A stretch of DNA of 62,184 bases, taken from positions 1-62,184 of the forward strand of contig JAFYQQ010000013.1 in the NCBI GenBank assembly GCA_017559845.1, read 5' to 3'. Of the stretch, positions 29,412-54,124 are shown piece by piece; position 1 is the stretch's first letter, and the number at the start of each line of letters is the position of its first letter. The notes beneath the pieces were generated by a model. It was not told where the DNA came from. It searched no databases and was given only the letters and a program-made list of their open reading frames with translations. Source of the DNA: Bacteroidaceae bacterium. GTDB taxonomy: Bacteria > Bacteroidota > Bacteroidia > Bacteroidales > Bacteroidaceae. The position numbers were made by a program, and so were the translations under genes.

Positions 29412-29423
29412 TTTGACTGGATT

Positions 29424-32815: not shown

Positions 32816-32999
32816 ATCAGGATGACTTAAAGAAATACGGTATGCCTTTACCTACGCCCTGTTTTGTGGGCTGGGGCGCTGTGTGGCATTTGGGGTATCC
32901 GAATGGTGGCCGGCGGTGGCGGGGAGGGAATTTTCATTCGGCCGAAAGGGCTTTTTGGGGGCTTGCTGATGGCTTTCCGTTTAAAAAAGCCTGTGTATC

Positions 33000-33190
33000 A
33001 TGTTGAAATTTCATTTCCGCATGATGTAAAAATATAATTTCAGATTGAAATTCCATTTCCGCACTATGTAAAAACATAATTTCAGATTGAAATTCTATGT
33101 TCGCACTATGTAAAAGCGCAATTTCAGATTGAAATTCTATATTTACACTATGTAAAAGTATAATTTCAAAATGAAATTCCACTTTTACAC
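33000..33190. repeat. 42-bp phased palindrome array upstream of DUF6261 gene 1
   Basis: TGAAATT starts at 33004, 33046, 33088, 33130 and 33172, exactly 42 bp apart. Best units contain AATTTCAGATTGAAATT (centre 33128) and, 21 bp on, TTTACACTATGTAAA (centre 33149). The array is open in frame as 14-residue peptide repeats because 42 is divisible by three. The array ends about 100 bp before the start codon of the DUF6261 gene. Confidence 0.9.
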
Positions 33191-33200
33191 AGATTAAATG

Positions 33201-33229
33201 TTGTATTTCAGAAAATTTTTATATTTTCG
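33201..33229 (+). promoter_or_regulatory. Candidate promoter of DUF6261 gene 1
   Basis: TTG at 33201-33203 and TATTTTCG at 33222-33229 with an 18-nt spacer; the -7 box has one mismatch to TAnnTTTG. The palindrome array abuts it on the upstream side. Confidence 0.4.
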
Positions 33230-33291
33230 TGCCGTAGGAAGTCCTTAAAGTGGGCGCCAGACCGAGTTTCAATCCTTAAAAAGTGCACAAC

Positions 33292-34029
33292 ATGGGAAGT
33301 TATCTGAAAATCGATCCCGTAAGACTGGGAAAATTCAACAAGGCAGAGTATGCCAGACTGATGAATGACACAAAATTGCTCATTTTGGAGGTTGGGGCGG
33401 AGAAGATAGGCGTGAGCCAGGCTTTGCTGGACGCTTTTTCCGCCAATGTGGAGAAGTTGACGGACATCATAGTGGAAACCCGCGCCCGGATTGAGACGAT
33501 AGAGATCAACGAGGAGGACCGCAAGGCGTGCGAACTCGTCATTTATCTGATGGCCACCATCCGCGCCAACCGCTCGTCGCCTCTGGAAGCGATGCGCGTT
33601 GCCGCCGAAGCGCTCTTCCTGGAGACCAAACCCTATGTGGGCTGCCAAAGGCTTCCGCAGGGGCAGAAGCTGGTGATGATACGCGCGCTGCTGACCGACC
33701 TCACCACGGAAGGGATGTACGCCCATGTGCAGACGCTCCATCTGGCCGACGTGGTGGAAGAACTGGGCGTGGTGGCCGGTCGCCTGGGCGATCTCATCTG
33801 CCAGCGCACCTCGCAGCGTGCCGCCGAAAGGACTGAGCCGGCAAAGGTCGTGCGTGCCGAGATGGACGAGCAGTTCGACGACATCCTGACCATCGCCTTT
33901 GTGACCAGCGTGGCGCATCCCAGCCCCGTGGCCACGCGCTTTGTCTCGCTGATGAACGCCGTTATTGCCGAATCGGAGACGGCCTACAAGCAGCGCACCG
34001 TACAGCGCACCAGGCGGAAGAAGGAGTGA
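33292..34029 (+). CDS. DUF6261 family protein 1
   Basis: 245 aa from ATG 33292 (an in-frame GTG at 33283 is less likely). No signal peptide or membrane segment; largely helical. It shares the block AHVQTLHLADVVEELG with the second DUF6261 protein (AHVQTLHLEEVVQVMK), along with matching helices before and after and a final FVSLMNAVIAESE helix resembling FIDYMNTLINEYK there. A basic tail (RTRRKKE) could bind nucleic acid, but this is inference. Function unknown. Its upstream region carries the 42-bp palindrome array; the other paralogue has an array of the same geometry. Confidence 0.8.
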   Translation: MGSYLKIDPVRLGKFNKAEYARLMNDTKLLILEVGAEKIGVSQALLDAFSANVEKLTDIIVETRARIETIEINEEDRKACELVIYLMATIRANRSSPLEAMRVAAEALFLETKPYVGCQRLPQGQKLVMIRALLTDLTTEGMYAHVQTLHLADVVEELGVVAGRLGDLICQRTSQRAAERTEPAKVVRAEMDEQFDDILTIAFVTSVAHPSPVATRFVSLMNAVIAESETAYKQRTVQRTRRKKE

Positions 34030-34082
34030 GCGGCACAGCGGAATCCGTTCCGCTTCGCAAAAAGCATAACGCAAGCGAAAAA

Positions 34083-34114
34083 AGAGGGCTGCCCCCGGAG
34101 AGAGGGCAGCCCTT
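34083..34114. terminator. Terminator between DUF6261 gene 1 and the convergent operon
   Basis: Stem AGGGCTGCCC / GGGCAGCCCT preceded by AAAAAAG, so it may work on the minus strand as well. Confidence 0.75.
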
Positions 34115-34165
34115 GTGGTATAACGTGTGCGGCAGACTGTCCGCCGGCCGCACAGAGTGTGCTTT

Positions 34166-35122
34166 CTATTTGAAATCCAGCAGGTACATTTCGCCTTGCG
34201 TCTGGATAAGCATCTTGTCCCGCCATTGCGAACAGTCTTCCAGTTCGCCCTTCGTAACCTGGCTCAGGTCAATCACGTTGCGCATGGTGCGGGTGTTCAG
34301 ATCCCATACGTACAGCTCGGAGGGATACTTCTCGTTGCCGAATCCGGTGGGCATATACAGCAGTCCGTCTCTGATCATCAGTCCTTGCCCGATGGGGTTG
34401 AAGGGAGCCTGATAGGTGTCCTCGATGAGATAGTTCTCCAGCAGGTCTTCTTCCGTGAGGGTAACTATCCCGTCTGTGGATTCGGATAGTTCGGGAATGC
34501 GGAACTTTACAATGCGGTGGCGGTTGGTGGGGTTGGTGTTGTCTACCGTATTGCCGTAGCCGTAAAGATAGTTTCTTTCAGCGTCCACCGCCCAGTTCAG
34601 CGCATAGCCGAAGAGCTTGTTGCGGTCCTTGAACACGATGGTCTGCACCAGGGTTGTCGACTTCATGTCTGGGGCGATGCGTTCAACGTACAGCACATCC
34701 TTGCGCCCGTTAATGCTGCCCCGCTGGCATTGCGCCACGTAAATGAGCGGGAAGGGGTCGTCCTTTTCATACCGTATGCGGCCAAAGGTAACCTCGTTGC
34801 AGTGGTTCTTCTCGTGGTGGCTGGCAATCTGGAAAGGCTTTACCACCTGCTTCAGGGTCTTCCCGTCTGTGGTGTAGACCGACAGGTATCCGGTGTTCTG
34901 AAAGCTGAAGATATAGTCGTTCCATACGTCCATGCCCTGATAGCTTTGTTTCTCCTGCCCTTTCAGCTTGCCCAGGCAAAGCGCGTCGAGGGTGTGCGGC
35001 TTCATTACAATGGCCGGGCCGTCATAACTGGTGGTTTTTACTTCGGCGGCGTTTTGTGCCGTCAGTGTGGAGGGGAGCAGGGCGCATGCGCACAGCATCC
35101 CTTTTACAAAGGTCTTTCTCAT
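34166..35122 (-). CDS. Exported protein of unknown function, possibly a beta-propeller
   Basis: 318 aa. Signal peptide (cleavage near LTAQ). The mature part is made of repeated four-strand units with the rhythm of a beta-propeller: YIFSFQNTGYLSVYTTDGKT, LYGYGNTVDNT, LYMPTGFGNEKYPSELYVWD and MLIQTQGEMYLLDF. No domain name can be given with confidence. It lies 6 nt downstream of the GT2/DUF4922/SpoIID gene and must be co-transcribed with it, so the two probably act in the same process. Confidence 0.62.
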   Translation of the reverse strand: MRKTFVKGMLCACALLPSTLTAQNAAEVKTTSYDGPAIVMKPHTLDALCLGKLKGQEKQSYQGMDVWNDYIFSFQNTGYLSVYTTDGKTLKQVVKPFQIASHHEKNHCNEVTFGRIRYEKDDPFPLIYVAQCQRGSINGRKDVLYVERIAPDMKSTTLVQTIVFKDRNKLFGYALNWAVDAERNYLYGYGNTVDNTNPTNRHRIVKFRIPELSESTDGIVTLTEEDLLENYLIEDTYQAPFNPIGQGLMIRDGLLYMPTGFGNEKYPSELYVWDLNTRTMRNVIDLSQVTKGELEDCSQWRDKMLIQTQGEMYLLDFK

Positions 35123-35128
35123 GTTGGC

Positions 35129-38100
35129 TTAATAGATTTTCTTGATTTCCGCTTCCTTATAATAATGGTGCAGGATGGACTGGAACTTGTGGCCCTGCTC
35201 GCCCATGACGGCGGCGCCAATCTGGCACATGCCCACACCGTGGCCCCATCCGCGGCCGCAGAGTCGGAACCGTTGCGGAATGCCGTCCACAATGTCCAGG
35301 CGCTCCACGCGGAAGGCGCTGCTCTTCAGGTGGGAGCGGCTCAGCGTGCGGCGTATTTCAAGTTCTTTTCCAATGGTGAATTCCTTTTGGGTGCCCACAA
35401 TCTTGAGCTTGCTCAGGTGTCCGCTCTGGCTCCGCTCCACGTCTTGCAGGTCGGTGATCGGGCCCAGGTCTGTGCGCAGATTCTCGCTTACCAGTTCCTG
35501 CATCTCCTGCTGGCTGTATTCCACGGTCCACTCCAGGAAGTCGGTGGTCTCTCGGTCATAGTCGTTCAGCACCTGGTCCAGCACCTGGGGCGTGGCCTGG
35601 CTGCAATAGGGGTCGTCCACATGTTGCAGGTAGGGCAGGTCCTTGTTGTCCCAGCAGTGGCGGTAGGTGTTGGTCATTCCGCCGCAGCACTTTCCAAACC
35701 GCGCGTCGCAAATCTCGCCTCCGTATACGAGAATCTGTCCGCGAGTGGCGTCTATGGCCTGTTTCGCCTGCGGGCTGAATGAGCGTGTGACGCCTTGGTA
35801 GCGTTGGCAGTGGTCATCGGCGCACACGTCAAAGAGGGTGTGTTCCTCGCGGTCGTACCAGCGGATCATTTCGCTGTCCGACTTACTGAACGAGAAGAAC
35901 GTGTTGTGCTCGCCCTCGTGCTGGCGGCGGTGTTCCAGCTGTGCCATAATCCAGCTGCGGCTGATGACGGCAGACGCTTTCAGGAACTCCAGGCTGCAGG
36001 TGGCCTTCATCTCGCTGCTGATGACGCTTAGCAGATAGTCTTCCATCGGAATCTCGTTGATGACCAGAATCTTCTCCTCGTCCACGATGAGGCGCAGCGT
36101 GCCACGGAAGGTCTGGGTCTCAGTGCGCTCCCAATGGAATTGCTTTCCTATGGTCACTTGTTCCACGGAGAAGCAAGACTCCTCTTGCTGGGGACGGAAG
36201 GTGAGGTGGTGGTACAGGCTGCCGTTCCACAGGATGCTGCCTTCGTGATACTGCACGGTCTGCTGTCCGCTCGCCAGGTTTCCCTTGGCCTTATAATCGT
36301 GGTGCAAATGGAAGGTGAGTTGTGTGGCGGACATCAGTCCCACCTTTACAGAAGGCTCCTCGGCATCAGTCTGCTGCAAATCGCTGGAGATGCTCTCATC
36401 CTCTTCTTGCGGCTCCGGCTTCGGGGTGTCCTTGATCTGGTGTATCACGTCTTCCAGCTGGTCATATTCCAGCGTGACTTCCTTCAGGATGGCCGCCGCT
36501 GTTTCCGGTGTCAGCTTGTTGAAGTCTTCTTCGCGCGGTGTGATGAAGAGTCCGCCCATGTCCAATGCGCCCGGACTGATGAGTAACTTGTCTTCGCCTT
36601 CCGCGTAATAGCAGTCGGGACGGTGTTTTGAACGGGGGAAGAGCAACGTGATGACTTCATCGGGCTTTCCCACGCCACCTTCCTGGTGCCATGCAATCAA
36701 GTTCATGCGCGGTTCTTCCTCGCCTTCCGCAATGGGGAGCGCGTTGTAAAGACGTTGGCACAGTAGGCTGTCCGACTCGGTGGGGATGCTGCGGATGACA
36801 AAGACCGGGCACTGATAGTCGCGCAGAATGTACAGTCCGCATTGCGAGCCTACGTATCCGGCCTCTTCCATGGACGCCGCTTCCTTTCCAGTCAGCGGGT
36901 ACAGCTTCTCCAGCCGCTGCTGGTACATGTCCCAGTCGCGTTCTATGGGCACAATGCCGCGGCTTCCGGCCTGCAGGTGCATGTGGTCCGGGCAGGACGC
37001 ACCGCACAAGGGACCGTTGTAGAAGATGATATATCCCTTCATGTCCCATGCCATACGGCGCATGGTGCTGAAGTGGCTGTATATGCTTTGTGGGGTATGG
37101 CGTCTGGTGGGGATGGTGAAGTGCTGCGGCAGGATGGGGAAGGGGTTTACCAGAATCTGGTAGTGCTTTTCCACCATCAGTGTGTGCTGCTCCTTGGGGC
37201 GGTTCTGGTCGCACAGGAAGCAGGGGCGTTCGGCAATGCTCTTCGAGTCGATTTTTGCCCCAGTACTGATAATACGGGCAGGGTTCCACTGGGCTTTCAG
37301 CATCCGTTCGGATTTGTACAAGTCTTTGCTCTGTGTGCTGTCAAGCGCCTTGTAATTCTGTGTGGCCAACGGCCAGTTTTCCACTTCCCGGGCAAAGAAT
37401 GCCTGCATCTCTTCCGTGTCTACGTGGTGCTGCCATTTCTCGTTCAGTTGTTGCCGGGCATGGATTTCGAGTGTACGCAGATGGTCTTTGTATCGGTTGT
37501 TCTTGTTTATCTTGTCCTGGCTCAGTGCTGCATCGCTGTTCCCCTCCCATCGGCGGCACAGATATAGCTCGTCATAGATGCGCCCGATACGGAAACGGCG
37601 ACTGATCATCAGCCCCAGCGCATAGTCTTCTCCGTAACTGGTGTTGGGAATATGTATCTTTCGCAGAAGTGGAGTGAAAAAAGCTCTTGGCGCTCCCAGA
37701 CCGTTTATACGTAGGGCATTGTTGCGGCCGTTTTGTGGAGTCCATTCGCGGTGGTCGATGAGGCCGGGAGGAAGGGTCTCCAGTTGGAAATTGCACATTC
37801 GGTATGCACCGATTACCATTACGGCTTTTTGTTCGTAAAAGGCATCCACGATGCGTTGCAGAGTTTGCGGACTGCTGTACAGGTCGTCGCTGTCCAGCTG
37901 CACCACAAAGCGTCCAGCTTGTGGGTGGTGTACGGCCATGTTCCAGCATCCGCCAATGCCCAGGTCGTCGCGTTCGGGGATGAGATGTATCACCCGTTTG
38001 TCCTCGGTATACTTAGCTATTGCCTCTGTGGTGCCGTCCGTACTGCCGTTGTCTACAATAATCAGATTGAAAGGGAAAGTGGTTTCCTGTTCCAATACGC

Positions 38101-38869
38101 TTTTTATCGCATCCTCAATGGTGCGGACACGGTTGCGTACCGGAATCACAACAGAAGCTTCAACTTCGAAGTCTCCCTCTCTCAAATCCGGTTCATCGTT
38201 TTCGTTGCCGTGCAGATAGGCGTTGATGGCACGTAAATGGCGGGTTACGGCACGTTCCATTTCCACTTGGCGCGACCGGTTTCTGGGGTCTACGTAGTCA
38301 AACTGTTTTTGCCCGCTCAAACGGGTGTCGCGCTCCATCTCTGTGTACAGGAACTCATCCACATGAACCGGCAGAGAACGGCGGCTGATGAAAAGACGCA
38401 GGTCATACAGGGCGGCATGCTGATAGGTGTGCAGATGGCTTTGGCCAACATATTCCTTCAGCGCCTCTGTCTTGATAAGCAGCACGGAACCCATCTGGAA
38501 ATCGTCTCGCACGGAACCTTCCTGATACTCAATCAGCGGCATGGCGCGCCGTTCTCCGTCGGGCGTCACAATGTAGTGGTCGGCATACCACATCTCGCCT
38601 CTGCTGTCTTCTGCTACGGACAGCAGGCGGTGCAGGGCATGGTAGCCCAACTTCAGCGTGTCGTACTTGGTATATAATAAGATGTATGGCGCGGTGGCCA
38701 GTTGTGCAATTTGTCTGATGGTGCGTGTGCAGCCAAATCCTCCCTCTTCTTGCAGGTAGTGTATGGCGGCAACGTGCTCGTCCGCACTCAGTTGGGCGAC
38801 GGTCTCCCGAACCTGTTCTTCGCTGATTCTGGGGATGAAACAGTCTATTTTCGGTAAAACGGTATTCAT
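35129..38869 (-). CDS. GT2 glycosyltransferase / DUF4922 / SpoIID fusion protein
   Basis: 1246 aa, three recognisable parts. (1) GT2 family glycosyltransferase at about 235-480 with [32 protein letters not shown] and QLDSDDLY (Asp326, Asp328, Asp329); the N-terminal 230 residues also look GT-A-like, with YKYD-type rather than DxD residues. (2) DUF4922, about 540-800, a GalT/HIT-like nucleotide-binding domain with CxxC at 550-553 and the HMHLQ triad at 629-633. (3) SpoIID/LytB-like domain, about 900-1246, with [36 protein letters not shown] (a CCGG signature) and [12 protein letters not shown]. No signal peptide is visible although SpoIID domains usually act on peptidoglycan outside the membrane. 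Promoter at 38920-38913. Confidence 0.85.
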
Positions 38870-38912
38870 ATATCTGATGTAGGATTTGATTACAATATGT
38901 CTGTTGTCGATA

Positions 38913-38920
38913 CAAAAATA
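38913..38920 (-). promoter_or_regulatory. -7 box of the GT2/DUF4922/SpoIID operon
   Basis: TATTTTTG on the minus strand, about 44 nt upstream of the ATG. Confidence 0.6.
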
Positions 38921-39038
38921 CTTATTTTTTTTCTCTTATCCAAACGATGGGGCAAACGAATAAGGGAATACTGACTTTCTTTGTGGCTATCCATTAAAAA
39001 AAATATTATGATGTGGTCGGCATTATGTTTTTTTTTCG

Positions 39039-39046
39039 TACTTTTG
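39039..39046 (+). promoter_or_regulatory. -7 box of the GH20 gene
   Basis: TACTTTTG, 42 nt before the ATG at 39089. No clear -33 box at the right distance. Confidence 0.6.
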
Positions 39047-39088
39047 CGGCAAATCATACTCATCAATTAATTTAAATACAAAGCATTT

Positions 39089-40753
39089 ATGAAGAAAATT
39101 GTTTCATTGTTTTTTGCGCTTTTGCTCTTTGCCGGCAATTTCAGTGCCAGCGCACAACGCGCAGACTATGATGTGATTCCCCTGCCCAAGGAAGTGAAGG
39201 AGGACTCTACACAGGTGTTCACTCTCCGTCAGGGTATGGGAGTGGCTTACGATGCCGCCAACCCCGAAGTTTACCGTAATGTGCAATTCCTTTGCCAGTG
39301 GGTGAAGGAAATGACCGGTATCACGCTGAAACTGACCCCCGATGACAAGAAAGCCGCAATCCGTGTAGGATTGGATTACCCTGTCAATAAGGGTGAGGCA
39401 GAAATCGAACTGACCGAACAGGAGAAAGAGGCATATATCATCAATGTGGACAAGAAAGGACTGACCATCCGTGCCCGCAAGCCGGTAGGTTTGTTTCGTG
39501 CAGCTCAGACGATCCGCAAGTCGTTGCCCGTAGAGAAGTCTGAAAAGGTTGAGTTCCCCTTTGTGGAAATTAAGGACCAACCCCGTTTTGAATACCGTGG
39601 TGTATTGTTAGATTGCGGTCGTCATTTCTTTACGGTTGAGTTTATCAAGCAGTTCATTGATGTGATGGCGCTTCACGGCAGTAACCAGTTCCATTGGCAT
39701 CTTACCGAAGACCAAGGCTGGCGTTTCGAGGTTAAGGCTTATCCTAGTCTGGCTCCTCAGGGAAGTGTGCGTGCCGAGACTGTTGTTGGTCCCCACAACT
39801 CTGGTATCTATGACGGCATTCCTTATGGTGGATATTATACCCAGGACGACTGCCGCGAAGTGGTTCGCTATGCTGCGGACCGCTACATCAACGTCGTTCC
39901 CGAGATTGACCTCCCCGGCCACATGCAGAGTGCCCTTCACGTATTCCCCCACTTGGGTTGTACTGGTGGCCCTTATCCTGTGCGTACCTACTGGGGCGTG
40001 AGCCGCGAGGTGTTGTGTGGCGGTAATCCCGAAACCATTACCTTCCTCAAGACTGTTTTGGGCGAGTTGTGTGATGTGTTCCCCTCCAAGTACATCCACA
40101 TTGGTGGTGATGAGTGCCCCAAGGACCGTTGGAACAAATGTGCCAAGTGTCAGGCCAAGATTAAGGAGTTGGGTATCAAGGGCGACGACAAGCATAAGTT
40201 CTCTGCCGAACACCAGTTGCAGAGTTGGATTAACCGCGAGGTGGAGGAGTTTATGAAAGTACGCGGACGTGCCATTGTCGGCTGGGACGAAATTCTGGAA
40301 GGCGGCCTCTCCGGTTCTTCCATTGTGATGTCTTGGCGTGGCACCAAGGGCGGTATTGCCGCTGCTCGTCAGGGCCATCGTGTCATCATGAGTCCCAATG
40401 TATATAGCTACATTGACCATCCCCAGTTGAAGGACTATGGCAAGCAGCCCCGTACCACAGACAGCTATATTGTATCGGCCAGTAAGATTTATTCTTTCGA
40501 GCCCCTCATTCCGGATAGCCTGACTCAAGATCAGCAGAAACTGATTTTGGGTCCCCAGATTAACTTGTGGACCGAGCATGTGGCCTATCCTCAGCATGCA
40601 TTCTATCAGTTGCTCCCTCGTCTGGGCGCATCAAGTGAAGTGCAGTGGTGTCTTCCCGAGCAGAAGGACTTTGAACAGTTCAAGAACCGTCTGCCCCGTC
40701 TGAAGAAGATTTATGACCTCATGGGCGTAGCCTATTGCCGACAGGTTGAATAA
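39089..40753 (+). CDS. GH20 beta-N-acetylhexosaminidase
   Basis: 554 aa. Signal peptide to about SAQR. An N-terminal GH20b-type domain (about 25-165) is followed by the catalytic barrel with HWHLTEDQGWRFE, EIDLPGHMQSAL and HIGGDECPKDRW; the catalytic Asp-Glu pair is Asp341-Glu342. GH20 uses the substrate's acetamido group as nucleophile and removes terminal beta-GlcNAc or beta-GalNAc. It fits with the nearby mannosidase and GH18 genes for breakdown of N-glycans or chitin-like material. Own promoter and terminator. Confidence 0.95.
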   Translation: MKKIVSLFFALLLFAGNFSASAQRADYDVIPLPKEVKEDSTQVFTLRQGMGVAYDAANPEVYRNVQFLCQWVKEMTGITLKLTPDDKKAAIRVGLDYPVNKGEAEIELTEQEKEAYIINVDKKGLTIRARKPVGLFRAAQTIRKSLPVEKSEKVEFPFVEIKDQPRFEYRGVLLDCGRHFFTVEFIKQFIDVMALHGSNQFHWHLTEDQGWRFEVKAYPSLAPQGSVRAETVVGPHNSGIYDGIPYGGYYTQDDCREVVRYAADRYINVVPEIDLPGHMQSALHVFPHLGCTGGPYPVRTYWGVSREVLCGGNPETITFLKTVLGELCDVFPSKYIHIGGDECPKDRWNKCAKCQAKIKELGIKGDDKHKFSAEHQLQSWINREVEEFMKVRGRAIVGWDEILEGGLSGSSIVMSWRGTKGGIAAARQGHRVIMSPNVYSYIDHPQLKDYGKQPRTTDSYIVSASKIYSFEPLIPDSLTQDQQKLILGPQINLWTEHVAYPQHAFYQLLPRLGASSEVQWCLPEQKDFEQFKNRLPRLKKIYDLMGVAYCRQVE

Positions 40754-40781
40754 TCCTAAATATATATATAATAATAGTATG

Positions 40782-40816
40782 CCGGGAAACGAATTCTCTT
40801 TCGTTTCCCGGTTGTC
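40782..40816 (+). terminator. Terminator after GH20
   Basis: Stem CCGGGAAACGAA / TTCGTTTCCCGG, 5-nt loop, then TTGTCATTTTT. Confidence 0.85.
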
Positions 40817-40834
40817 ATTTTTATGGGCAATTTC

Positions 40835-40875
40835 ATTTCCCTCGGGAGAGAGTAATATTTTCCTCGGGAGGAAAA
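40835..40875. repeat. CCTCGGGAGG elements
   Basis: Two direct copies, TTTCCCTCGGGAG (to 40848) and TTTTCCTCGGGAGGAAAA (40858-40875), the second a near-perfect palindrome. Same core as 19611-19650. Confidence 0.6.
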
Positions 40876-40995
40876 AAGAAATGGGGTTTGTGGCAATGAG
40901 ATTTGTTGTACTGAAAATGTATGCAGTTTATAACAGATTTTCATGATGCAGACCGATTAGATGCATATATAAGCGGTGATTTCAGAAAAAAAACT

Positions 40996-41003
40996 TATCT
41001 TTG
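40996..41003 (+). promoter_or_regulatory. -7 box of the GH31 operon
   Basis: TATCTTTG, 41 nt upstream of the GH31 ATG. Confidence 0.65.
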
Positions 41004-41044
41004 TGGCAAAGACAATATAGTAAAAGTTCCAAAAGACTAATATA

Positions 41045-43369: not shown

Positions 43370-43385
43370 TAATTCCTTTACACAG

Positions 43386-44354
43386 ATGAAAAGACTTCAT
43401 ATCCTGTTTCTGGCAACAATGTTATGTGTGCTTTGTACCCGTGCGCAATCCTATTATGTTACCGGCAGTGCCGTGCCCGATGGTAAGGTCATTCCGCTTG
43501 AAAAGTGGGACGACGGCTCGCACAAATTCCATGGAACGCTTGTCCCCGGCGAACTTTACATCATCAACACCCCCGAGATTGGCAGTCTTACACAGTATCT
43601 TGCTCCTCAGCAGGTCAACAGCAATATTGTCTGCAATGGAATCCGGGCATTGTCAAGACGCTCGTCCGAAGATGCGGCATGGGCAGTGCTTTTCGAGGCA
43701 GACAACTACCGTTTTTCCATTTCCCCTTCGCTTGTCGTCACTGGCGAGATTTTTACTTGGTGGTACGAGGCCTGGATTGTGGGTGGTTGTACGGAAGACG
43801 GACAAGGCAATTGGAAACTTACGGCAGGAAAGCAGATGGTGCAAAGTCCGCATGACCCTTATGAATGGACATGGGTGGGCGAGCTGAAAGCCTATTCTTC
43901 CAATGAGGAACCGCGCCGTTTCAAGATTCTCGGCCAATACGATTGGGGACCAAAGCACCTTCATCCCTACAAGCAGGATGCTTCCATCCTTACCGCCGAG
44001 AAGGTTATCTATAACAATTCCAACGACTACAAGTGGACAATAGAGGAAGATGGTTATTATCGCATAAAGTGTAATGTGTTTCTGGAAACCATTTCCGGCG
44101 AATACCTTGGTGTGAATCCCCCTTCAGACATCGGAGAGGAGTATGCCTCTGCCACAAGTGTCCGTGCTTTTGGCCGCATAGTCAGTGTGCAGAGTTGCGA
44201 GCCGCTAACGGTACAGTTGGTTTCACTTAGTGGACAGGTTGTCGCTACGGCGCATGGAACTGATGTCAGCTTGCAGGTGCCGGCTTCGGGAATCTACATG
44301 GTTCGTGCCGACGGCCGTTTTACCCATTTCACCCGAAAGGTGGCGGTGAAGTAG
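43386..44354 (+). CDS. SusE/SusF-like exported protein with C-terminal sorting-like domain
   Basis: 322 aa. Signal peptide ending at RAQ. The middle part has SusE/F-type starch-binding features (IVGGCTEDGQGNWKL and HDPYEWTWVGELKA, then RRFKILGQYDWGP). The last 60 residues form a T9SS-like C-terminal domain (LVSLSGQVV, LQVPASGIYMVRADG, KVAVK). Role inferred: glycan binding at the surface for the GH31 enzyme encoded 16 nt upstream. No SusC/SusD pair is present nearby. Confidence 0.78.
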   Translation: MKRLHILFLATMLCVLCTRAQSYYVTGSAVPDGKVIPLEKWDDGSHKFHGTLVPGELYIINTPEIGSLTQYLAPQQVNSNIVCNGIRALSRRSSEDAAWAVLFEADNYRFSISPSLVVTGEIFTWWYEAWIVGGCTEDGQGNWKLTAGKQMVQSPHDPYEWTWVGELKAYSSNEEPRRFKILGQYDWGPKHLHPYKQDASILTAEKVIYNNSNDYKWTIEEDGYYRIKCNVFLETISGEYLGVNPPSDIGEEYASATSVRAFGRIVSVQSCEPLTVQLVSLSGQVVATAHGTDVSLQVPASGIYMVRADGRFTHFTRKVAVK

Positions 44355-44362
44355 TCTGTCTG

Positions 44363-46279: not shown

Positions 46280-46428
46280 GATGATGAACTTCATACACAT
46301 ATTTATACACACCAGAGTGGATTTACTAAACGCCTGGCTATACCATTATTTGTCAATGTTCTGGATTCTGACGGACTTGTTGCTCAATTTCAAGCCTTTT
46401 TCTATGCTTTATTTCCTTTGTTTTTCCG

Positions 46429-46436
46429 CAAATATA
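46429..46436 (-). promoter_or_regulatory. -7 box of the CotH gene
   Basis: TATATTTG on the minus strand. It would give a leader of about 110-180 nt depending on the start codon used. Confidence 0.45.
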
Positions 46437-46520
46437 CTTCTTTTTCTCCAATAAGACCTGTATTTGTGAATATACTTTAACCCAATCATATACAATGCGG
46501 TAAATAATCATGCGTTTTCT

Positions 46521-46551
46521 TTTGTCCTGAATCCGCTTTTTAGTATCTTTG
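46521..46551 (+). promoter_or_regulatory. Promoter of the mannose operon
   Basis: TTTG at 46521-46524, 19-nt spacer, TATCTTTG at 46544-46551; leader about 55 nt. Confidence 0.8.
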
Positions 46552-46610
46552 CGGATGTGCATGTCGCTTGCACGGTTATTTTGAACAGAATCAAAAAGAA
46601 ATAGGAAGAA

Positions 46611-48647
46611 ATGAAAAAACGAATTTTACTTGGCGGTATGTTTGCCCTGATGTCCTTTTCACAGGTTTTTGCAATCACTCCGCTTTCCGACGAGCATCGC
46701 ATCTTGCGAGAGAAAGTAAACCTCTTCATGGGTACAGCCAATGATTATGGCCAGATGGCTCCCGGTGCCACCGTACCTTTCGGTATGGTACAGGTTTGTC
46801 CGGACAGCAATCCTCGCCAACATCCCGGTTACGATTATGAAGTGCCCCTTATCTCGGGCATCTCCATCAACCGCCTTTCCGGAGTGGGTGGCAGCGGTTG
46901 TGGTGGCAATGTCTCGCTGATGCCCGACGCCAAGGGAAAGGACATCCGCATTCTGAAGGCAACCGAGTATGCCGAGCCGGGATATTACGAAACCTTCTTG
47001 AGCAACGGCGTCCAAGTGAGTCTAACGGCTACTCATCGCATGGCAGTGGAGCGTTATGCCTTCCCCTCAACGGTGGAACCCGTATTGTTGCTCAACCCCA
47101 CTTCTTCCTTTGAACGGGTGGAAGGCTCTTCTTTTTCTGCCCTTTCAGACCGTGTGGCAAAGGGATATGTGGCATCCCGTAACACTTGCGGACGAGGAGT
47201 TTATCACCTCTACTATCGCCTGTATGCCGACAAACCTTTTGTAGCGGAAACTTTGGCAGACGGCCGCATCCGCCTGACTTTCTCTTCTCGCCAGGTAGAG
47301 GTGCGCATTGCCGTGTCCACCGGACTGGAGAATGCCCTTGACGCCTTCTCTGAAACCGATGTGTGGAAACAGGATTTCTCCGCGCTTCGTGCCGATGCCG
47401 CTTCTCAGTGGTATGCCATTCTGGAACGTGTTAAGGTGAGTGGTGCCCCTCAGGTACAGCCTCTTTTCTATACCTCGCTCTATCGTGTGTTCCACAGTCC
47501 TTTCAAGGTTACGGACGACAAGATGGACACCTATTTGGGCACAGACGGTAAGGCGCACAAGGCAGAAGATTTTGACTATTATAGCTCATGGTCATTGTGG
47601 GATACCTACCGTACCAAGTTCCCCCTCATCACCCTGTTCCAACCCCAGCGCAGCCAGGCCATCATGGCATCCTTGGCGCAACTTTACATCACGGGCAAGG
47701 AAGATTGGTCCACTCCTCATGAATGTGTACCTACGGTGCGTACGGAACATGCCATCGCCACTTTGCTCGATGCCTATCGCAAGAAGGTGCTGACAAAGGA
47801 CGTGCTGCAGAAGGCCTATCCCGGAATGGTGGCCGAGGCGAAGCGTCTGTCCTTGAAATCGCCTGACCAGTGCCTGGAGGCTGCTTCTGATTTCTGGGCT
47901 TTGAGCGAACTGTCAAAGGAATTGGGTAAGCAGGCCGACTACAAGAAGTGGAAACAGCGTGGCGAAGAACTTTTCGATTCTATTTGGCCGCGTGAGTTTA
48001 TGAAGATTGACGCAAACTACACCAAGATGCGTGGCAATGGACTTTACCAGGGCACACGCTGGCAGTATCGTTGGGGCGCTCCCATGTTCCTTGATCGCAT
48101 GATTGCCTTGTGCGGAAAGGAAAAGCTCCAGAACGAGTTGAATACCTTCTTTGACGAACAGCTCTATAACCAGGGCAATGAACCCGATATCCATGTCCCC
48201 TTCCTTTTCGGTCGTTTGGGCCAGCCTCTCCGCACCGGCGGCGTGGTACAGGAACTTATGCTGGACAGCATCACTCACCGCTATGGCGGCAACGATGCCT
48301 ATAAGACTCCTTTCATCGGCCATGCCTTCAAGAACGCTCCCCGTGGATATTGCCCCGAGATGGACGAGGACGACGGCACCATGAGCGCCTGGTTTGTGTT
48401 TGCCTCCATGGGCATGTATCCGCTCATTGTGGGCGAACCCGTATATGAACTCTTCTCGCCTGTTTTTGATCGTATTGAAATGCAGATGGATGAGGCAGCC
48501 AAGGTCAAGACCGTCATCCGGACGGCCGGACGCAAGGATATGCGTCAGCCCCTGCGCCGTGTAACGTGGAATGGAGCGCCGCTCCCCAATTTCCAGATTA
48601 AGCATGCGCAATTGGCCAAGGGTGGCGAGCTGGTGTTCTGGTATTGA
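46611..48647 (+). CDS. GH92 exo-alpha-mannosidase
   Basis: 678 aa. Cleavable signal peptide (ALMSFSQVFA), no lipobox, unlike the GH92 at 14955. GH92 marks: VNLFMGTANDYGQMAPGATVPFGMVQVCP, given as FMGTANDYGQ and ATVPFGMVQV; the GNEPDIHVPF block with the catalytic Glu; and DEDDGTMSAWFVF with the Asp pair. First gene of an operon with ManA (42 nt) and a ROK kinase, so released mannose can be used at once. The DYGQ opening is typical of a GH92 subgroup different from the first gene's GSGGHGH. Confidence 0.93.
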   Translation: MKKRILLGGMFALMSFSQVFAITPLSDEHRILREKVNLFMGTANDYGQMAPGATVPFGMVQVCPDSNPRQHPGYDYEVPLISGISINRLSGVGGSGCGGNVSLMPDAKGKDIRILKATEYAEPGYYETFLSNGVQVSLTATHRMAVERYAFPSTVEPVLLLNPTSSFERVEGSSFSALSDRVAKGYVASRNTCGRGVYHLYYRLYADKPFVAETLADGRIRLTFSSRQVEVRIAVSTGLENALDAFSETDVWKQDFSALRADAASQWYAILERVKVSGAPQVQPLFYTSLYRVFHSPFKVTDDKMDTYLGTDGKAHKAEDFDYYSSWSLWDTYRTKFPLITLFQPQRSQAIMASLAQLYITGKEDWSTPHECVPTVRTEHAIATLLDAYRKKVLTKDVLQKAYPGMVAEAKRLSLKSPDQCLEAASDFWALSELSKELGKQADYKKWKQRGEELFDSIWPREFMKIDANYTKMRGNGLYQGTRWQYRWGAPMFLDRMIALCGKEKLQNELNTFFDEQLYNQGNEPDIHVPFLFGRLGQPLRTGGVVQELMLDSITHRYGGNDAYKTPFIGHAFKNAPRGYCPEMDEDDGTMSAWFVFASMGMYPLIVGEPVYELFSPVFDRIEMQMDEAAKVKTVIRTAGRKDMRQPLRRVTWNGAPLPNFQIKHAQLAKGGELVFWY

Positions 48648-48689
48648 TGCCTGTTGTTCGCCAGATACATAGAATAAAAGCGGAAATAT

Positions 48690-50420
48690 ATGCGTTCATC
48701 CAACTTTGACAAATATCCCTCCACCCCAATTGATGGCGAGGCCATCATGGGATGGGGGGCAATAGTGGACAAGTTGCAGGACGAATGGGACGCCAGCCCA
48801 ATTTGGGCCATAGACTTATATGTGGGAAGTTACGAAGATGACTTTGTGGAAGCATTTGCCGCTACAGGTCGCAAGGTTATCCAGACCCGTAGTCTGATGA
48901 TTGGCGATGAGGCCGTAAAGGAACTCACAGACCGTTTTATAACGGATGATGTACTGTTCGGCTATATGTCTAACATTCGTCTTGAGGAATATTTCTGCGA
49001 GAAAAAAGTGGAAGAGATTCGCTTGCGCATGGCAGACGGGGGAAAGTATGTTGTCGTGGGAACCGCGGCAGCATTTATCGCCTCTTCTGCACCGGTAGCT
49101 TACGCCGATATGGCAAGGTGGGAAATTCAGCAACGTTACCGCCGGCACGAGGTGAAGGCTCTTGGCATAGACAACAGCGACGAGGGTCCCAGCCTTCAGT
49201 ATAAAAGAGGATATTTCAATGATTGGAACATCTGCGATGCCTACAAGGATGAGTTGTTCCAGCAGAGACGTATCAGTTTCTGGATTGACCACAACAGCCG
49301 TGCCTACCCCAAAATGATCACCGATGTTCAGTTCCGCCAAGGCTTGCAGCGCACCGTCAGCCGGCCGTTTAGGGTGGTGCCTTTCTTTGACCCTTCCCCT
49401 TGGGGTGGCCAGTGGATGAAGGAAGTGTGTGGTTTGGACCCCTCGGTGGAAAATTACGGATGGTGCTTTGATTGTGTGCCAGAGGAAAACAGCCTCTATT
49501 TCCTGGTTGGGGGAGAGCGTTTCGAATTGCCCTCACAGGATGTGGTGCTGTGGCAATATCGCGAACTGCTTGGACATCATGTCTGGTCTCGTTTCGGGCG
49601 TTCGTTCCCCATTCGTTTTGATTTCCTGGATACCATGGGAGGCGGCAACCTGAGCGTACAGGTACACCCTACAAGCGAGTTTGCGCACCGCAACTTCGGA
49701 TTGGCCTATACGCAGGACGAAAGCTACTACTTGCTGGATGCTGGAGACGATGCCGTGGTTTATCTCGGTCTGAAGGAAGACGTCTGCCCCGAAGAGATGA
49801 TTGAGGATTTGCGCAAGGCGCAGCGAGGCGAAATCATGTTCGATGCCGAATGCTACGTGAATAAGTTCCATGCCAAAAAACATGACCATTATTTGATACC
49901 CAGCGGAACGGTACATTGCTCTGGCCATAACAGCATGGTGCTTGAAATCAGTTCCACCCCCAGTATCTTCACATTCAAGTTGTGGGACTGGGGACGTTTG
50001 GGACTCGATGGCAAACCCCGTCCCATCAATGTGGAACGCGGAAGCAAGGTAATACAGTGGGAACGGCGTACCGAATTCGTGAAGAACGAACTTTGCAACC
50101 GTTTTGAGGTGCTAAAGGAGGAAGACGGAGTGCGCGAGGAACGTACTGGACTTCACCGTAACGAGTTCATAGAAACCCGCCGCCACACTTTCTGCCGTCC
50201 CGTAACACTCCATACCGAGGGCGGAGTCAATGTGCTGAACCTTTGCCAGGGCGAGGCGGCTTTGGTGGAAAGCCCCACAAATGCGTTTGAACCGTTTGAA
50301 GTGCATTATGCCGAAACATTCATCATTCCGGCCAGCATTGGGGAATATACCCTAACACCTAGTAGAAACAACAAGAACAATGAACCCTGCATGGCCATCA
50401 AAGCCAGTGTCAGGGGATAA
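48690..50420 (+). CDS. Class I mannose-6-phosphate isomerase with N-terminal extension
   Basis: 576 aa; typical class I isomerases are 300-400. The isomerase part begins near residue 215 (FRVVPFFDPSPWGGQWM) and has LSVQVHPT, the YLIPSGTVHCSGHNSMVLEI region and TFKLWDWGR, in line with a zinc-dependent cupin enzyme that interconverts mannose-6-phosphate and fructose-6-phosphate. The first about 210 residues (WAIDLYVGSYEDDFVEAF, VVVGTAAAFIASSAPVAYAD) are an added domain that looks like a nucleotide- or phosphosugar-binding fold without a P-loop. No signal peptide. Lies between GH92 and ROK in an operon. Confidence 0.85.
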   Translation: MRSSNFDKYPSTPIDGEAIMGWGAIVDKLQDEWDASPIWAIDLYVGSYEDDFVEAFAATGRKVIQTRSLMIGDEAVKELTDRFITDDVLFGYMSNIRLEEYFCEKKVEEIRLRMADGGKYVVVGTAAAFIASSAPVAYADMARWEIQQRYRRHEVKALGIDNSDEGPSLQYKRGYFNDWNICDAYKDELFQQRRISFWIDHNSRAYPKMITDVQFRQGLQRTVSRPFRVVPFFDPSPWGGQWMKEVCGLDPSVENYGWCFDCVPEENSLYFLVGGERFELPSQDVVLWQYRELLGHHVWSRFGRSFPIRFDFLDTMGGGNLSVQVHPTSEFAHRNFGLAYTQDESYYLLDAGDDAVVYLGLKEDVCPEEMIEDLRKAQRGEIMFDAECYVNKFHAKKHDHYLIPSGTVHCSGHNSMVLEISSTPSIFTFKLWDWGRLGLDGKPRPINVERGSKVIQWERRTEFVKNELCNRFEVLKEEDGVREERTGLHRNEFIETRRHTFCRPVTLHTEGGVNVLNLCQGEAALVESPTNAFEPFEVHYAETFIIPASIGEYTLTPSRNNKNNEPCMAIKASVRG

Positions 50421-50434
50421 AAAACATTACAACT

Positions 50435-51535
50435 ATGTATATTACTGACAATCGTATTGTGCTTACCCTTGATGCAGGAGGCACAAATTTCGTTTTCTCT
50501 GCCATGCAGGGATACAAAGAAATTGCACAACCCATCAGACTTGATGCTGTATCGGACAGCATTCAGGGATGTCTGGATGTATTGGAACACGGATTTAACC
50601 TGGTTAAGGAACAGCTTGCCGACGAACCGGTGGCCATCAGTTTTGCCTTCCCAGGCCCGGCCGACTATGAGCGCGGAATCATTGGCGACCTCGGCAACTT
50701 CCCTGCATTCCGGGGCGGTGTGGCAATGGGACCCTATTTGCAGGAGAAGTTCGGCATCCCCGTATATATAAACAATGACGGCAACCTGTTTGCCTATGGC
50801 GAGGCTCTGGCCGGTTTCCTGCCCGAGGTGAACCAAACCTTGCGGCTGAACGGAGTTACGCGCCAGTACCGCAATTTGTTGGGCATTACGCTGGGCACCG
50901 GATTCGGCGGCGGAGTGGTACTCGACGGCGTGCTGCTGCGTGGAGACAACGGTTGCGGTGGTGATGTCTGGTGTATGCGCAACGCACGCTATCCTCAGAT
51001 GATTGCCGAAGAGGGCGTGAGCATCCGAGCCGTGCGCCGAGTGTATCAGGAAGAAAGCGGACAGGATGTGGAAGGATTGACTCCCTTTGACATTTATCAG
51101 ATTGCCGAGGGCAAGCGCGAAGGAGATCCACAGGCAGCCAAGGAGGCGTTCCGTCAGCTGGGAGAAGTGGCAGGTGAGGCTATGGCCAATGCCCTGAATA
51201 TCGTGGACGGAGTGGCTGTAATAGGCGGAGGTCTGGCCGGAGCGGGAAAATATATCCTGCCCGGAGTGGTTGCCGCATTGAAGGGAACGGCCGGCACGTT
51301 TGGCGGCAATTCTTTCCCCATACTGCAAATGGACGTATTCAACTGGGAGGATGAGGCTGACCGGGAAAAGTTCGTTGCCTTGGGCATGGGAAGCGTGAAG
51401 GTTCCCCGCTCCGACCGCGAAATCCCCTACCTGAACCGCCGTTCCATTTGTGTGGGCCTTTCTAAGAATGGGGCCAGCACCAGCATTATGTATGGAGCCT
51501 ATGCCTATGCGTTGCGCCAGTTGGACAAACTATAG
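50435..51535 (+). CDS. ROK family sugar kinase, probably hexokinase/mannokinase
   Basis: 366 aa. ATP-binding LDAGGTNF (Asp13 onward) at the N terminus, the ROK block INNDGNLFAYGEALAGF with the catalytic Asp, and LLGITLGTGFGGGVVLDG. The usual zinc motif CxCGxxGC is not intact; a Cys-rich GCGGDVWCMRN stands in its place. Because it follows GH92 and ManA (14 nt after ManA), mannose is the most likely substrate. Followed by a strong terminator. Confidence 0.88.
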   Translation: MYITDNRIVLTLDAGGTNFVFSAMQGYKEIAQPIRLDAVSDSIQGCLDVLEHGFNLVKEQLADEPVAISFAFPGPADYERGIIGDLGNFPAFRGGVAMGPYLQEKFGIPVYINNDGNLFAYGEALAGFLPEVNQTLRLNGVTRQYRNLLGITLGTGFGGGVVLDGVLLRGDNGCGGDVWCMRNARYPQMIAEEGVSIRAVRRVYQEESGQDVEGLTPFDIYQIAEGKREGDPQAAKEAFRQLGEVAGEAMANALNIVDGVAVIGGGLAGAGKYILPGVVAALKGTAGTFGGNSFPILQMDVFNWEDEADREKFVALGMGSVKVPRSDREIPYLNRRSICVGLSKNGASTSIMYGAYAYALRQLDKL

Positions 51536-51589
51536 GCTTTAAAGATCCTGTTTGCGCTTTAGCAGACGAAAGAAGTATTTGAAAACAAA

Positions 51590-51622
51590 AAGACGGACGA
51601 CACCATTGCGTGCCGTCCGTCC
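51590..51622. terminator. Terminator after the ROK gene
   Basis: GACGGACG / CGTCCGTC stem extended by CAC/GTG; preceded by AAAAA and followed by CTCGTTTATTG. Convergent with the DUF6261 gene 2. Confidence 0.8.
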
Positions 51623-51651
51623 TCGTTTATTGTATCTTCTGATTTGCAGAT

Positions 51652-51733
51652 TTAGTCAACCTTTCTCAGGAAGATCATTCCGGTGGTATTGTTGCCGTTG
51701 GGGGCATAGCCTTCGAGTTCGATGTGGAAGGAA
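51652..51733 (-). other. Out-of-frame tail behind DUF6261 gene 2
   Basis: In the frame that differs by one base from DUF6261 gene 2, the sequence continues past the gene's stop as WQDNSFHIELEGYAPNGNNT and on to FLRKVD, then a stop. It reads like real protein. Loss of one base in the six-G run at 51788-51793 would join it to the gene. Confidence 0.4.
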
Positions 51734-52624
51734 TTATCCTGCCAGTTCGCCGTTTTCGTCGTAATAGTCGTCACCGCCGCCGGTGTCGGGGGGTGTGGGG
51801 GTATCATTGCCGCCGCCGGTGTTGTCGTTGCCGCCGGTGTCGGGCGTTTCGGGGTCGGCGGGCGTGTCGGTTGGGGTGTCACCCTCGGTCTCGGGCTGCG
51901 AGGGAGTGGTGGACGAGGGCTTCTGGTTCAGGACCTCTGTCTTGTACTCGTTGATGAGGGTGTTCATGTAGTCGATGAAGTTGGCATAGTCGGCCTCGCC
52001 TTCCACCATGGCCAGGGCGTTCACCATGGCGATAAACGTGCGGTAAGCCGCATCGGTGGCCGCGCGGGCGGTCTCGAGTGCCTTCTTCTCCTTGAGCATG
52101 CGCTCCTCGGTGCGGTTTTCGCGAATGGCGATGTACTGGTCATTGGCGGCCTTCATCACCTGCACCACCTCCTCGAGATGCAGCGTCTGCACGTGGGCGG
52201 CGCACTTGCCCTCAAGGTCGGCAATGAAGTTGGAGAGCAGACCCGACTCCTGGTCACGCTGTACGTCAACGTTGATGCGGTAATCGGTAATGAGCTGACC
52301 TGCTGCCTTGGCTGCCTTCTGGATTTCGGCATCGGGCACCTTGGCGTATCCGCCCACAATCTGCTTGAAGCCCCTGTAGGCATTGTCTCGGTTCTCGTCC
52401 AGCATGTTGAGCGTGTCGGTGAACTCGCTCTTCTGGCTGATTTTGAACTTTTCCTCTTCCACGAGGAAGGCGGCCTCATACTGGGTCAGCAGGGGAGCGA
52501 GCTGCGGCTTCGAACTGATTACGGGGTCGTTCTTGGCACGCTTCAGGACGCTTTGGTTGTAGCTGTAATGAGCGCCAATGGTCATGTTCTCGGCATAAAC
52601 GTTATTGGTTTGTTTCATAAGCAT
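51734..52624 (-). CDS. DUF6261 family protein 2, with low-complexity tail
   Basis: 296 aa from ATG 52624 (ATG 52618 possible). Helical N-terminal 225 residues share with DUF6261 protein 1 the block AHVQTLHLEEVVQVMK and the spacing of helices around it. The last 70 residues are Pro/Thr/Gly/Asp-rich (PSQPETEGDTPTDTPADPET, then GGNDNTGGGNDTPTP), which protein 1 lacks. No signal peptide. A tract of six G at 51788-51793 in the tail makes this end open to slippage. The 5' region carries a candidate promoter and the 42-bp palindrome array. Function unknown. Confidence 0.8.
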   Translation of the reverse strand: MLMKQTNNVYAENMTIGAHYSYNQSVLKRAKNDPVISSKPQLAPLLTQYEAAFLVEEEKFKISQKSEFTDTLNMLDENRDNAYRGFKQIVGGYAKVPDAEIQKAAKAAGQLITDYRINVDVQRDQESGLLSNFIADLEGKCAAHVQTLHLEEVVQVMKAANDQYIAIRENRTEERMLKEKKALETARAATDAAYRTFIAMVNALAMVEGEADYANFIDYMNTLINEYKTEVLNQKPSSTTPSQPETEGDTPTDTPADPETPDTGGNDNTGGGNDTPTPPDTGGGDDYYDENGELAG

Positions 52625-52680
52625 TAATTTTTTTAGTGGTTAGAAAAAGTTTGATTGTCGCATTGGAGACTTCCCCAAGG

Positions 52681-52688
52681 CAAAAATA
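52681..52688 (-). promoter_or_regulatory. -7 box of DUF6261 gene 2
   Basis: TATTTTTG on the minus strand, about 57 nt upstream of the ATG; 75 bp separates it from the edge of the palindrome array. Confidence 0.5.
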
Positions 52689-52762
52689 TGTTTTTTTCTT
52701 GAGAATGCCATGCGTTATCCCGATTTTATGATGAAAAAAGTTTTTTATGTAAGGTCTGGAGT

Positions 52763-53150
52763 GAGATTATAGGCGAAAAACCTTTTTTTAGGTAGGTCTC
52801 GCGCCGGGAGAAGCTTCCAAAATCTTTTGGGAGCATGATCTGGCGCCGGACCTTGCAAAAAAAACGTTTTGGAAGCATGAACTGGCGCGAGACCTTGCAA
52901 AAAAAACGTTTTGGAAGGTGGAACTCATGCGAGACCTTGCAAGAAAAACGTTTTGGAAGCATGATCCGGCGCGAGACTATAGGAAAAAAAACTTTTGGAA
53001 GCTTCTCCCGGCGCGAGACCTTGCAAGAAAAAGGTTTTGGGAGGTAGATCTCGTGCGAGACCTTGCAAGAAAAACGTTTTGGAAGCATGGTCCGGCGCGA
53101 GACCTTGTAAGAAAAACTTTTCGGAAGGTAGATCTCGTGCGAGACCTTGC
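52763..53150. repeat. 42-bp phased palindrome array upstream of DUF6261 gene 2
   Basis: GAGACC-type starts fall at 52763, 52805, 52847, 52889, 52931, 52973, 53015, 53057, 53099 and 53141, every one exactly 42 bp apart. Typical unit: GAGACCTTGC, A-rich run, AAAACGTTTT, GGAAGCATGATC, CGGCGC. Best palindromes are TCTCGTGCGAGA (centre 53054.5) and AAAACGTTTT (centre 53075.5), 21 bp apart. Several frames on both strands stay open because 42 is a multiple of three. Confidence 0.95.
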
Positions 53151-54119: not shown

Positions 54120-54124
54120 GCGGT

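Follow-up and report, generated by a model that had tools for sequence, protein, structure and literature searches.

Most DUF6261 genes of Bacteroidota are preceded by palindromic tandem arrays of nearly constant period and locus-specific sequence

RAYT genes lie beside their own repetitive extragenic palindromic (REP) sequences, of the REPIN and BIME kind, while cognate repeats are dispersed over the genome and repeats and proteins coevolve and co-occur (PMC2817692 and PMC3116915). RAYTs are tyrosine transposases related to IS200/IS605, with REPs on both sides of the gene. Iteron-initiator systems, such as plasmid Rep proteins and RctB of Vibrio cholerae chromosome 2, likewise have an array of sites near the gene for the binding protein; these initiators repress their own promoter, sites at a distance titrate them, and by handcuffing they can bring arrays together in pairs (PMC6090056). 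Within Bacteroidota, the BrickBuilt minisatellite-MITE (miniature inverted-repeat transposable element) of Porphyromonas gingivalis is an intergenic tandem array present in several copies per genome (PMC4596501). Here, we report that most DUF6261 (PF19775) genes of Bacteroidota are preceded by a tandem array of about 42-bp units, whose sequence is particular to the locus and in some cases recurs elsewhere in the same genome. The analysis followed up two such genes in a 62,184-nucleotide stretch of a Bacteroidaceae bacterium (contig JAFYQQ010000013.1 of assembly GCA_017559845.1; hereafter the window), which is contig C6 of the 3.06-Mb genome G000 (93% complete; genomes, contigs and loci are numbered G, C and L). 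This layout is not described in what was listed by literature searches for 42- or 21-bp palindromic tandem arrays in Bacteroidota or for arrays that coevolve with paralogues, and in the accessible parts of the literature DUF6261 was found just as a line in a mutation table.

The two window genes score 101.5 and 140.6 bits against PF19775, for which the curated cut-off is 27, and their proteins are 26% identical to each other over 128 aligned positions. The first-pass annotation of this DNA had described each gene as carrying on its 5' side an array that repeats every 42 bp with palindromes 21 bp apart, the two arrays being unrelated in sequence. Tandem Repeats Finder (TRF), autocorrelation and direct reading bear out the geometry at both genes (Table 1), and each array, when queried against the G000 genome, failed to recover the other. 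In array 1, palindromes A and B are centred 21 bp apart (33128 versus 33149), and 94 bp separate the array end from the ATG at 33292. In array 2, direct reading places AAAACGTTTT at centre 52865.5 and an imperfect CTGGC/GCGAG dyad 21 bp onward; TRF adds a higher-order period of 126 bp, and the distance to the gene start at 52624 is 201 bp by TRF or 145 bp by autocorrelation. The window arrays are not a matter of chance, since no array of 40-43 bp occurs in 357 kb of other G000 DNA at an autocorrelation threshold of 0.62. A CRISPR array was rejected, as the 42-bp units are contiguous and spacers are absent.

The association between array and DUF6261 is real and general. All 11 DUF6261 matches in G000 have a 38-46-bp array upstream by TRF, that of L006 being weak (period 44, not evident by eye). 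Two of these matches, L010 and L011, are shortened, one with an altered C-terminus. The family is patchily distributed and often multicopy (18 matches in G1098), with PF19775-bearing genomes making up 20 of 108 in the genus, 41 of 299 in the family, 47 of 393 in the order and 12 of 392 in the phylum. Our locus set comprised 116 DUF6261 open reading frames (ORFs) with surrounding DNA, 111 of them distinct once duplicates were removed; L080, a sub-threshold match with no recognizable gene, was dropped, and L026 lacks upstream DNA. TRF placed a 38-46-bp array no more than 900 bp upstream in 102 of the 116 ORFs and in 99 of the 111 distinct genes. Periods of these 99 arrays are 41 bp (49 arrays), 42 (43), 40 (4), 43 (2) and 44 (1), so that 92 have a period of 41 or 42; the medians are five copies and 87 bp from array end to start codon. 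Arrays also occur in the 850 bp 3' of the gene at a few DUF6261 loci, such as L039 and L041. A similar leader (GCCGCC...GAAAGGAG...GCGCGGC) was seen 5' of the arrays in L003, L005, L007, L010, L011 and L195.

Mechanically called ORFs of at least 100 aa from sampled stretches of 12 genomes, the window included, served as controls. At a TRF score of at least 100, an array precedes 23 of 1,420 control ORFs outside the genus g115, against the 99 of 111 distinct DUF6261 genes; the outcome that would have refuted the first-pass annotation, no excess before other members of the family, did not arise. Within g115, discussed below, the count is 24 of 441. Raising the score to at least 130 leaves 6 of 1,420 and 22 of 441 controls, respectively, and 93 of 116 DUF6261 ORFs. 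By autocorrelation, 40-43-bp arrays number one in 194 kb of G016 and none in 200 kb of G044, both genomes without a DUF6261 match, and G333, G1013, G299 and G660 gave 0, 1, 0 and 0 in 180-200 kb each (G299 with masked runs). In 550 of the 568 kb of one Prevotella nigrescens replicon, the sole strong 40-43-bp array (41 bp, 0.95) precedes a DUF6261 gene that sits amid conjugative-transposon genes; the only other match is weak (43 bp at 0.64). A supposed second place of the strong array's sequence proved, on these 550 kb, to be the same array. The annotated start of the Prevotella nigrescens protein WP_004367630.1 is probably too early, because it falls within the protein's own 41-bp array (L231 2224-2372 and 2339, NZ_CP082843.1).

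Ordinary slippage could produce minisatellites without function, and 19 of the 77 control arrays sampled outside g115 do have a period of 40-42 bp, a few of them beside DUF6261 genes. We consider this hardly credible as an account of the DUF6261 arrays. With periods of 12 to 70 bp all admitted, the best array upstream (score at least 100) measured 40-44 bp at 102 of 116 loci, 14 loci had none and no locus had any other period; the excess of dyads and the sequence shared between unlinked sites, both described next, also speak against it.

Palindromes were counted in 94 TRF array consensuses with periods of 40-43 bp, the L006 array being left out. The best palindrome is stronger than in shuffled units (0.73 versus 0.64 of nine pairs), and the second-best lies half a period away in 25 arrays where 2.2 were expected. 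The palindrome score at the antipodal position is likewise raised (0.47 versus 0.37, p about 6e-12). With these two results, the 21-bp spacing is a trait of the family, found in a good part of the arrays and not in all. A periodic array that is dyad-symmetric at one centre automatically has a second dyad half a period away, so the 42-bp period and the 21-bp spacing are not fully independent of each other. Palindrome A of array 1 is retained with small changes in the related arrays on C19 of G000 and in G131, and palindrome B varies among them. As a rule for the whole family, a constant A and a variable B were rejected by a test on 21 pairs, and the pattern holds only by eye for the relatives of array 1.

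Array sequence covaries with the protein, a relation that the first-pass annotation had proposed to test. Comparison of 97 distinct arrays (4,656 pairs; proteins shorter than 190 aa, such as that of L011, left out) showed that pairs with less than 50% protein identity have a mean array similarity no higher than background (0.09-0.11). Above this identity the mean rises, to 0.13 at 50-60% identity (34 pairs), 0.17 at 60-70% (11), 0.28 at 70-80% (12) and 0.48 at 80-100% (6). Within G000, 10 of the 11 cis arrays (45 pairs) have a mean similarity of 0.095, and shuffled units, the shuffling having been done on g115 arrays, reach 0.096. With arrays this dissimilar before the eleven G000 genes, no one host factor tied to one motif would read every one of them. 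The locus L193 of G131 bears on what the array follows. Its upstream flank is 88% identical to that of L001 over 553 bp, and its downstream flank is unmatched; its DUF6261 differs from that of L001 and is 67% identical to that of L003, and its array resembles the L003 array, with a GCGAGGGGTCGC core and a similarity of 0.35 against a shuffle 99th percentile of 0.20. An L003-like protein is thus paired with an L003-like array on an L001-type flank: the array follows the protein and not the site. The two loci (L193 2100-2790 and L001 1-1300) share the upstream flank and carry a different array and DUF6261, an apparent cassette exchange between relatives.

The private sequence of a cis array can also be found at places unlinked to its gene, which was not foreseen when the window was first annotated. 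Ten G000 cis arrays, L006 not among them, were queried against their own genome, and six gave unlinked matches of the same sequence (hereafter trans). Array 1 has a counterpart on C19, 74% identical and with a period of 42 bp, which lies between converging genes that we named by eye from their translations as coenzyme A-transferase-like and acyltransferase-like; no DUF6261 is present there. Array 2 has no trans copy in G000. A query with eight arrays placed trans matches in G000 at C3 and C17 for L001, C32 (near the contig end) for L002, C61, C82 and C10 for L003, C53, C76 and C25 for L005, and C42 and C9 for L011. Seven places were read for periodicity: C19, C3, C17, C42 and C61 are 41-42-bp arrays, confirming trans arrays for L001, L003, L008 and L011, and C32 and C9 are short and below the autocorrelation threshold. 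Near the trans places, tblastn with the DUF6261 proteins returned only short stretches, two at C3 (31 and 56 residues) and one at C32 (27 residues).

Homology is limited to the array in eight of the nine cis/trans pairs compared. The ninth, L234 (G131 C79:7787-8192), is a segmental duplication: about 24 kb from L197, it repeats that locus's array and promoter in inverted orientation, and no DUF6261 match was listed beside it. Where both neighbours could be read in G000, four of five trans arrays lie between converging genes (C61 is apparently between tandem genes), against a background of 17 convergent among 80 gaps of at least 200 bp in sampled G000 DNA. The number of trans places is small, in the range of about 1-5 for a cis array. 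One cis array from each of 12 other genomes was also queried, and 10 have further places of the same sequence in their own genome, with none in G496 and G417. Some of these places are located where a contig ends, and that on C56 of G174 is a sister gene's cis array. Candidates for DUF6261 were only partly scored in G634, G346, G588, G520, G496 and G417, so some places there may be cis arrays of unlisted genes. Between genomes, the only matches link G520 with G588, which belong to a single genus, and, twice and more weakly, G296 with G072, which belong to a single family.

With a probability of roughly one half, we propose that each DUF6261 protein binds the palindromes of its own cis array and of the arrays of the same sequence elsewhere in the genome. 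DUF6261 is likely the reader of the array, and a protein reading its own arrays would be the simplest account, because DUF6261 differs between loci in step with the array and the private sequence recurs at a distance without its flanks. Palindromes 20.5-21 bp apart, or two helical turns, would hold bound molecules on one face of the DNA and allow cooperative binding, and the two homologous lobes of the protein (see below) would suit imperfect palindromes. Binding to the cis array would regulate the protein's own promoter. At trans arrays, mostly placed between converging genes (four of five), it would sequester the protein or tie distant sites together and not control a promoter. A cell may run a dozen or so of these circuits in parallel, the array sequence being private to each paralogue. 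The first-pass annotation had considered locus-specific or self-recognition; cis arrays as unlike one another as shuffles fit this better than one host factor common to all.

An alternative is that DUF6261 works as RAYTs do on REPs and is itself what spreads or maintains the arrays, the array being mobile or amplified and DNA binding merely a step. The limitation of homology to the array in eight of nine pairs, the patchy presence in 20 of 108 genomes of the genus, and the joint swap of array and gene beside one common upstream flank would all be expected of a spreading agent, and RAYTs and REPs likewise coevolve and co-occur (PMC2817692). Co-occurrence was examined by querying eight arrays and scoring the three best candidates per genome. 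Matches were obtained in 4 of the 108 genomes, G000 included: 4 of 20 with DUF6261 and 0 of 88 without. The hypergeometric chance, calculated by hand, is 0.0009, or 0.005 excluding G000. This co-occurrence, which also counts for the binding proposed above, is weaker than it looks, because some matches are cis arrays of orthologues. The C19 array was found in one of ten congeners (five with DUF6261), namely G131, which holds an orthologue of gene 1 (L197, 89% identical), its cis array, and one duplicated and one unlinked array. Both hallmarks of RAYT/REP systems, repeat-protein coevolution and genome co-occurrence, are thus found for DUF6261, exceptions in G131 aside.

The protein itself makes a spreading agent unlikely. 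Models of the window proteins are all-helical, with two four-helix lobes and no beta strand (predicted local distance difference test 85 from 81 sequences and 95 from 46 sequences), and hhalign shows the two lobes to be homologues of one another (100 columns, E 2e-5, probability 77%). The nearly invariant residues D76, R79, D80, R187 and N221 include no His or Tyr, and an HUH-like string occurs in 4 of 111 DUF6261 proteins, so that no transposase or nuclease signature is evident. The number of trans places per cis array also contrasts with REPs, which usually exceed 100 per genome (PMC2817692). Membership in the RAYT/REP group was rejected on the invariant residues, the rare HUH-like string, the missing beta strand and the one-sided array.

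Other scans of the protein gave little. PHROGs, PADLOC and PDB-sequence searches returned weak matches only, the best in PADLOC (six proteins) being Cas11e at E 0.006 and 14.6 bits, and no initiator family is among the Pfam matches. For the gene 2 model, Foldseek found nothing at E 0.001 in PDB or BFVD, and the VIA list is headed by helical bundles (pectin methylesterase inhibitor, designed proteins, TorS, PilJ, McpS, CdvB and LemA). These were rejected as relatives, being within the range common for helical models, and the lack of a DNA-binding family in that list proves nothing. TorS, PilJ and McpS, which are helical bimodular sensor domains, superpose at a root-mean-square deviation of 5-7 A with about 5-10% identity, a common arrangement and no evidence of kinship. 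Gene 2 and many other DUF6261 proteins carry an acidic tail, disordered in the gene 2 model. Some acidic C-termini end in short motifs (GGLAG, GELAG, GGLEG, RPGIL, GGSPL), possibly interaction or degradation tails.

The position of the array relative to the promoter bears on whether it acts as DNA or RNA. The Bacteroidota -7 promoter element is TAnnTTTG. In 66 of 99 genes the gap between array and start codon is at least 60 bp, and TAnnTTTG lies inside it in 22 of them against 7.3 expected, the median distance to the start codon being about 70 bp. In the other 33 the gap is shorter, and TAnnTTTG occurs within 150 bp before the array in 7 against 1.0 expected. In many genes the array would thus seem to lie upstream of the promoter, given the enrichment in longer gaps, and in some behind it. 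This second class would suit an array that acts as RNA, through 5' leader hairpins controlling translation or stability. We regard this as very improbable for the arrays in general, for the enrichment in longer gaps suggests an array upstream of transcription. Mismatches on the sense strand are G.T in 43 cases and A.C in 69, hence without an excess of G.T, and this together with arrays between converging genes favours a role as DNA rather than RNA. Rfam gave no match at the gathering score within 32400-53600.

The genus g115 differs from the rest. In 400 kb sampled from G496, 22 arrays score at least 130 and 25 at least 100, mostly of 42 bp; their sequences are almost all individual (two pairs are alike), and the context of 23 of them is convergent in 8, tandem in 11 and divergent in 4. 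G569 and G406 have 2-3 arrays of 42 bp per 100 kb. Across the genus (G496, G569 and G406; L091-L110 and L211-L220), 42- and 21-bp arrays were seen in many places and beside unrelated genes. The possibility raised in the first-pass annotation, that arrays are equally common next to unrelated genes, thus fails outside g115 and is borne out within it alone. Such a profusion of unrelated sequences would be expected if a host nucleoid or regulatory factor read the geometry (helical phase or shape) and not the sequence, DUF6261 being only a gene under its control, and a constant geometry with changing sequence agrees with this. It leaves unexplained why unlinked places share the sequence of one cis array and why the array follows the protein, and we judge it improbable, more so than a spreading agent. 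Phased A-tract bending was rejected as a general mechanism by which shape could be read, because A/T tracts of at least 4 are missing from 45 of 97 array units.

Several observations weigh against binding of each protein to its own arrays. The arrays of G496 adjoin OsmC, YaaA, polysaccharide-export and other genes, and although all four DUF6261 genes in the sample are preceded by an array, these account for just four of its arrays. No array was detected upstream of 12 of the 111 DUF6261 genes, and for one of them, L041, it is the 850 bp 3' of the gene that hold a 41-bp array (0.83). Four of the ten queried cis arrays have no clear trans copy (L004, L009, L010, and L007 with merely 35 bp), and the matches of L002 and L005 are no more than candidate arrays. 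Contrary to a strict one-to-one rule, the L001 class is matched on C75 and the L011 class on C52 of G131, contigs with no listed DUF6261, and among the genes compared there is no close orthologue of L001 or L011; a cognate gene may have been missed, the genome being 93% complete. Conservation is not focused on the strongest palindrome, with identity of 0.67-0.81 within 8 bp of its centre against 0.73 at random centres (21 pairs). In the short-gap class the array may lie within the 5' leader, and one mechanism may not fit both classes. The gene 2 model has no clear fold match to any family, and in most members the core of the protein carries a net negative charge (-6 and -5 in the window proteins); so mildly acidic a core does not favour specific DNA binding, nor does it exclude it.

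In their way of working, the RAYT/REP and iteron-initiator systems come closest. DUF6261 differs from RAYTs in its predicted all-helical fold, the lack of tyrosine transposase residues, a tandem array of fixed 41-42-bp period on the 5' side, and few trans copies. It differs from iteron initiators in that these chromosomal genes have no evident replicon role, many paralogues with unrelated arrays share one genome, and no initiator-like match was found. A BrickBuilt-type MITE was rejected on unit size, which is 23 nt there and 40-44 bp at 102 of 116 DUF6261 loci; BrickBuilt also has a leader and a tail including inverted-repeat ends, and no protein family is tied to it in the accessible sections of its description (PMC4596501). 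The coordinates of the window features are collected in Table 1.

Table 1. Features of the two DUF6261 loci in the window.
Feature	Coordinates	Strand	Description and basis
Array 1	33003..33198	+	42-bp tandem units, two palindromes per unit 21 bp apart; Tandem Repeats Finder, 4.3 copies; autocorrelation widens it to 32965-33235
Palindrome A, example from array 1	33120..33136	.	AATTTCAGATTGAAATT, centre 33128; direct reading
Palindrome B, example from array 1	33142..33156	.	TTTACACTATGTAAA, centre 33149; direct reading
Gap, array 1 to start codon	33199..33291	+	TATATTTTCG at 33220, loosely resembling the -7 element TAnnTTTG
DUF6261 gene 1	33292..34029	+	245 aa; all-helical two-lobed model, without long acidic tail
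DUF6261 gene 2	51734..52624	-	296 aa; all-helical two-lobed model with disordered acidic tail, residues ~235-296
Gap, gene 2 to array 2	52625..52824	-	Putative promoter region; sequence
Array 2	52825..53150	-	42-bp units with AAAACGTTTT and imperfect GGTCTCGCGCCAG dyad; TRF, 7.8 copies; autocorrelation widens it to 52769-53167

Other repeats are present in the window. A third array, at 61592-61747, has a period of 21 bp (GTTCCAACAGATGAAACATAC, 3.4 copies); the gene on whose 3' side it lies encodes Asp-Al_Ex and TrkA_C domains, and no DUF6261 match is close by. Short tandem repeats occur at 29420-29483 and 54124-54169, with 9/18-bp and 9-bp periods (CTAGATATTCTAGCCCTT and TAAAGTCCT, respectively).

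More broadly, and tentatively, since we hold it to be somewhat doubtful, DUF6261 may represent a new class of chromosome-organizing or regulatory proteins, with a private satellite-like code of rapidly changing palindromes read by two pseudo-symmetric lobes, a fixed two-turn spacing, self-control at the cis array, distant arrays tied together, and a dozen or more orthogonal networks in one cell. If true, a large family of unknown function would acquire a role at the molecular level, with its targets at hand in the genomes that carry it. The paralogues would amount to a naturally occurring collection of many mutually orthogonal protein-DNA pairs and to a bacterial counterpart of rapidly evolving satellite DNA with the proteins that bind it, and the question of why the geometry stays while the sequence turns over would become directly testable.

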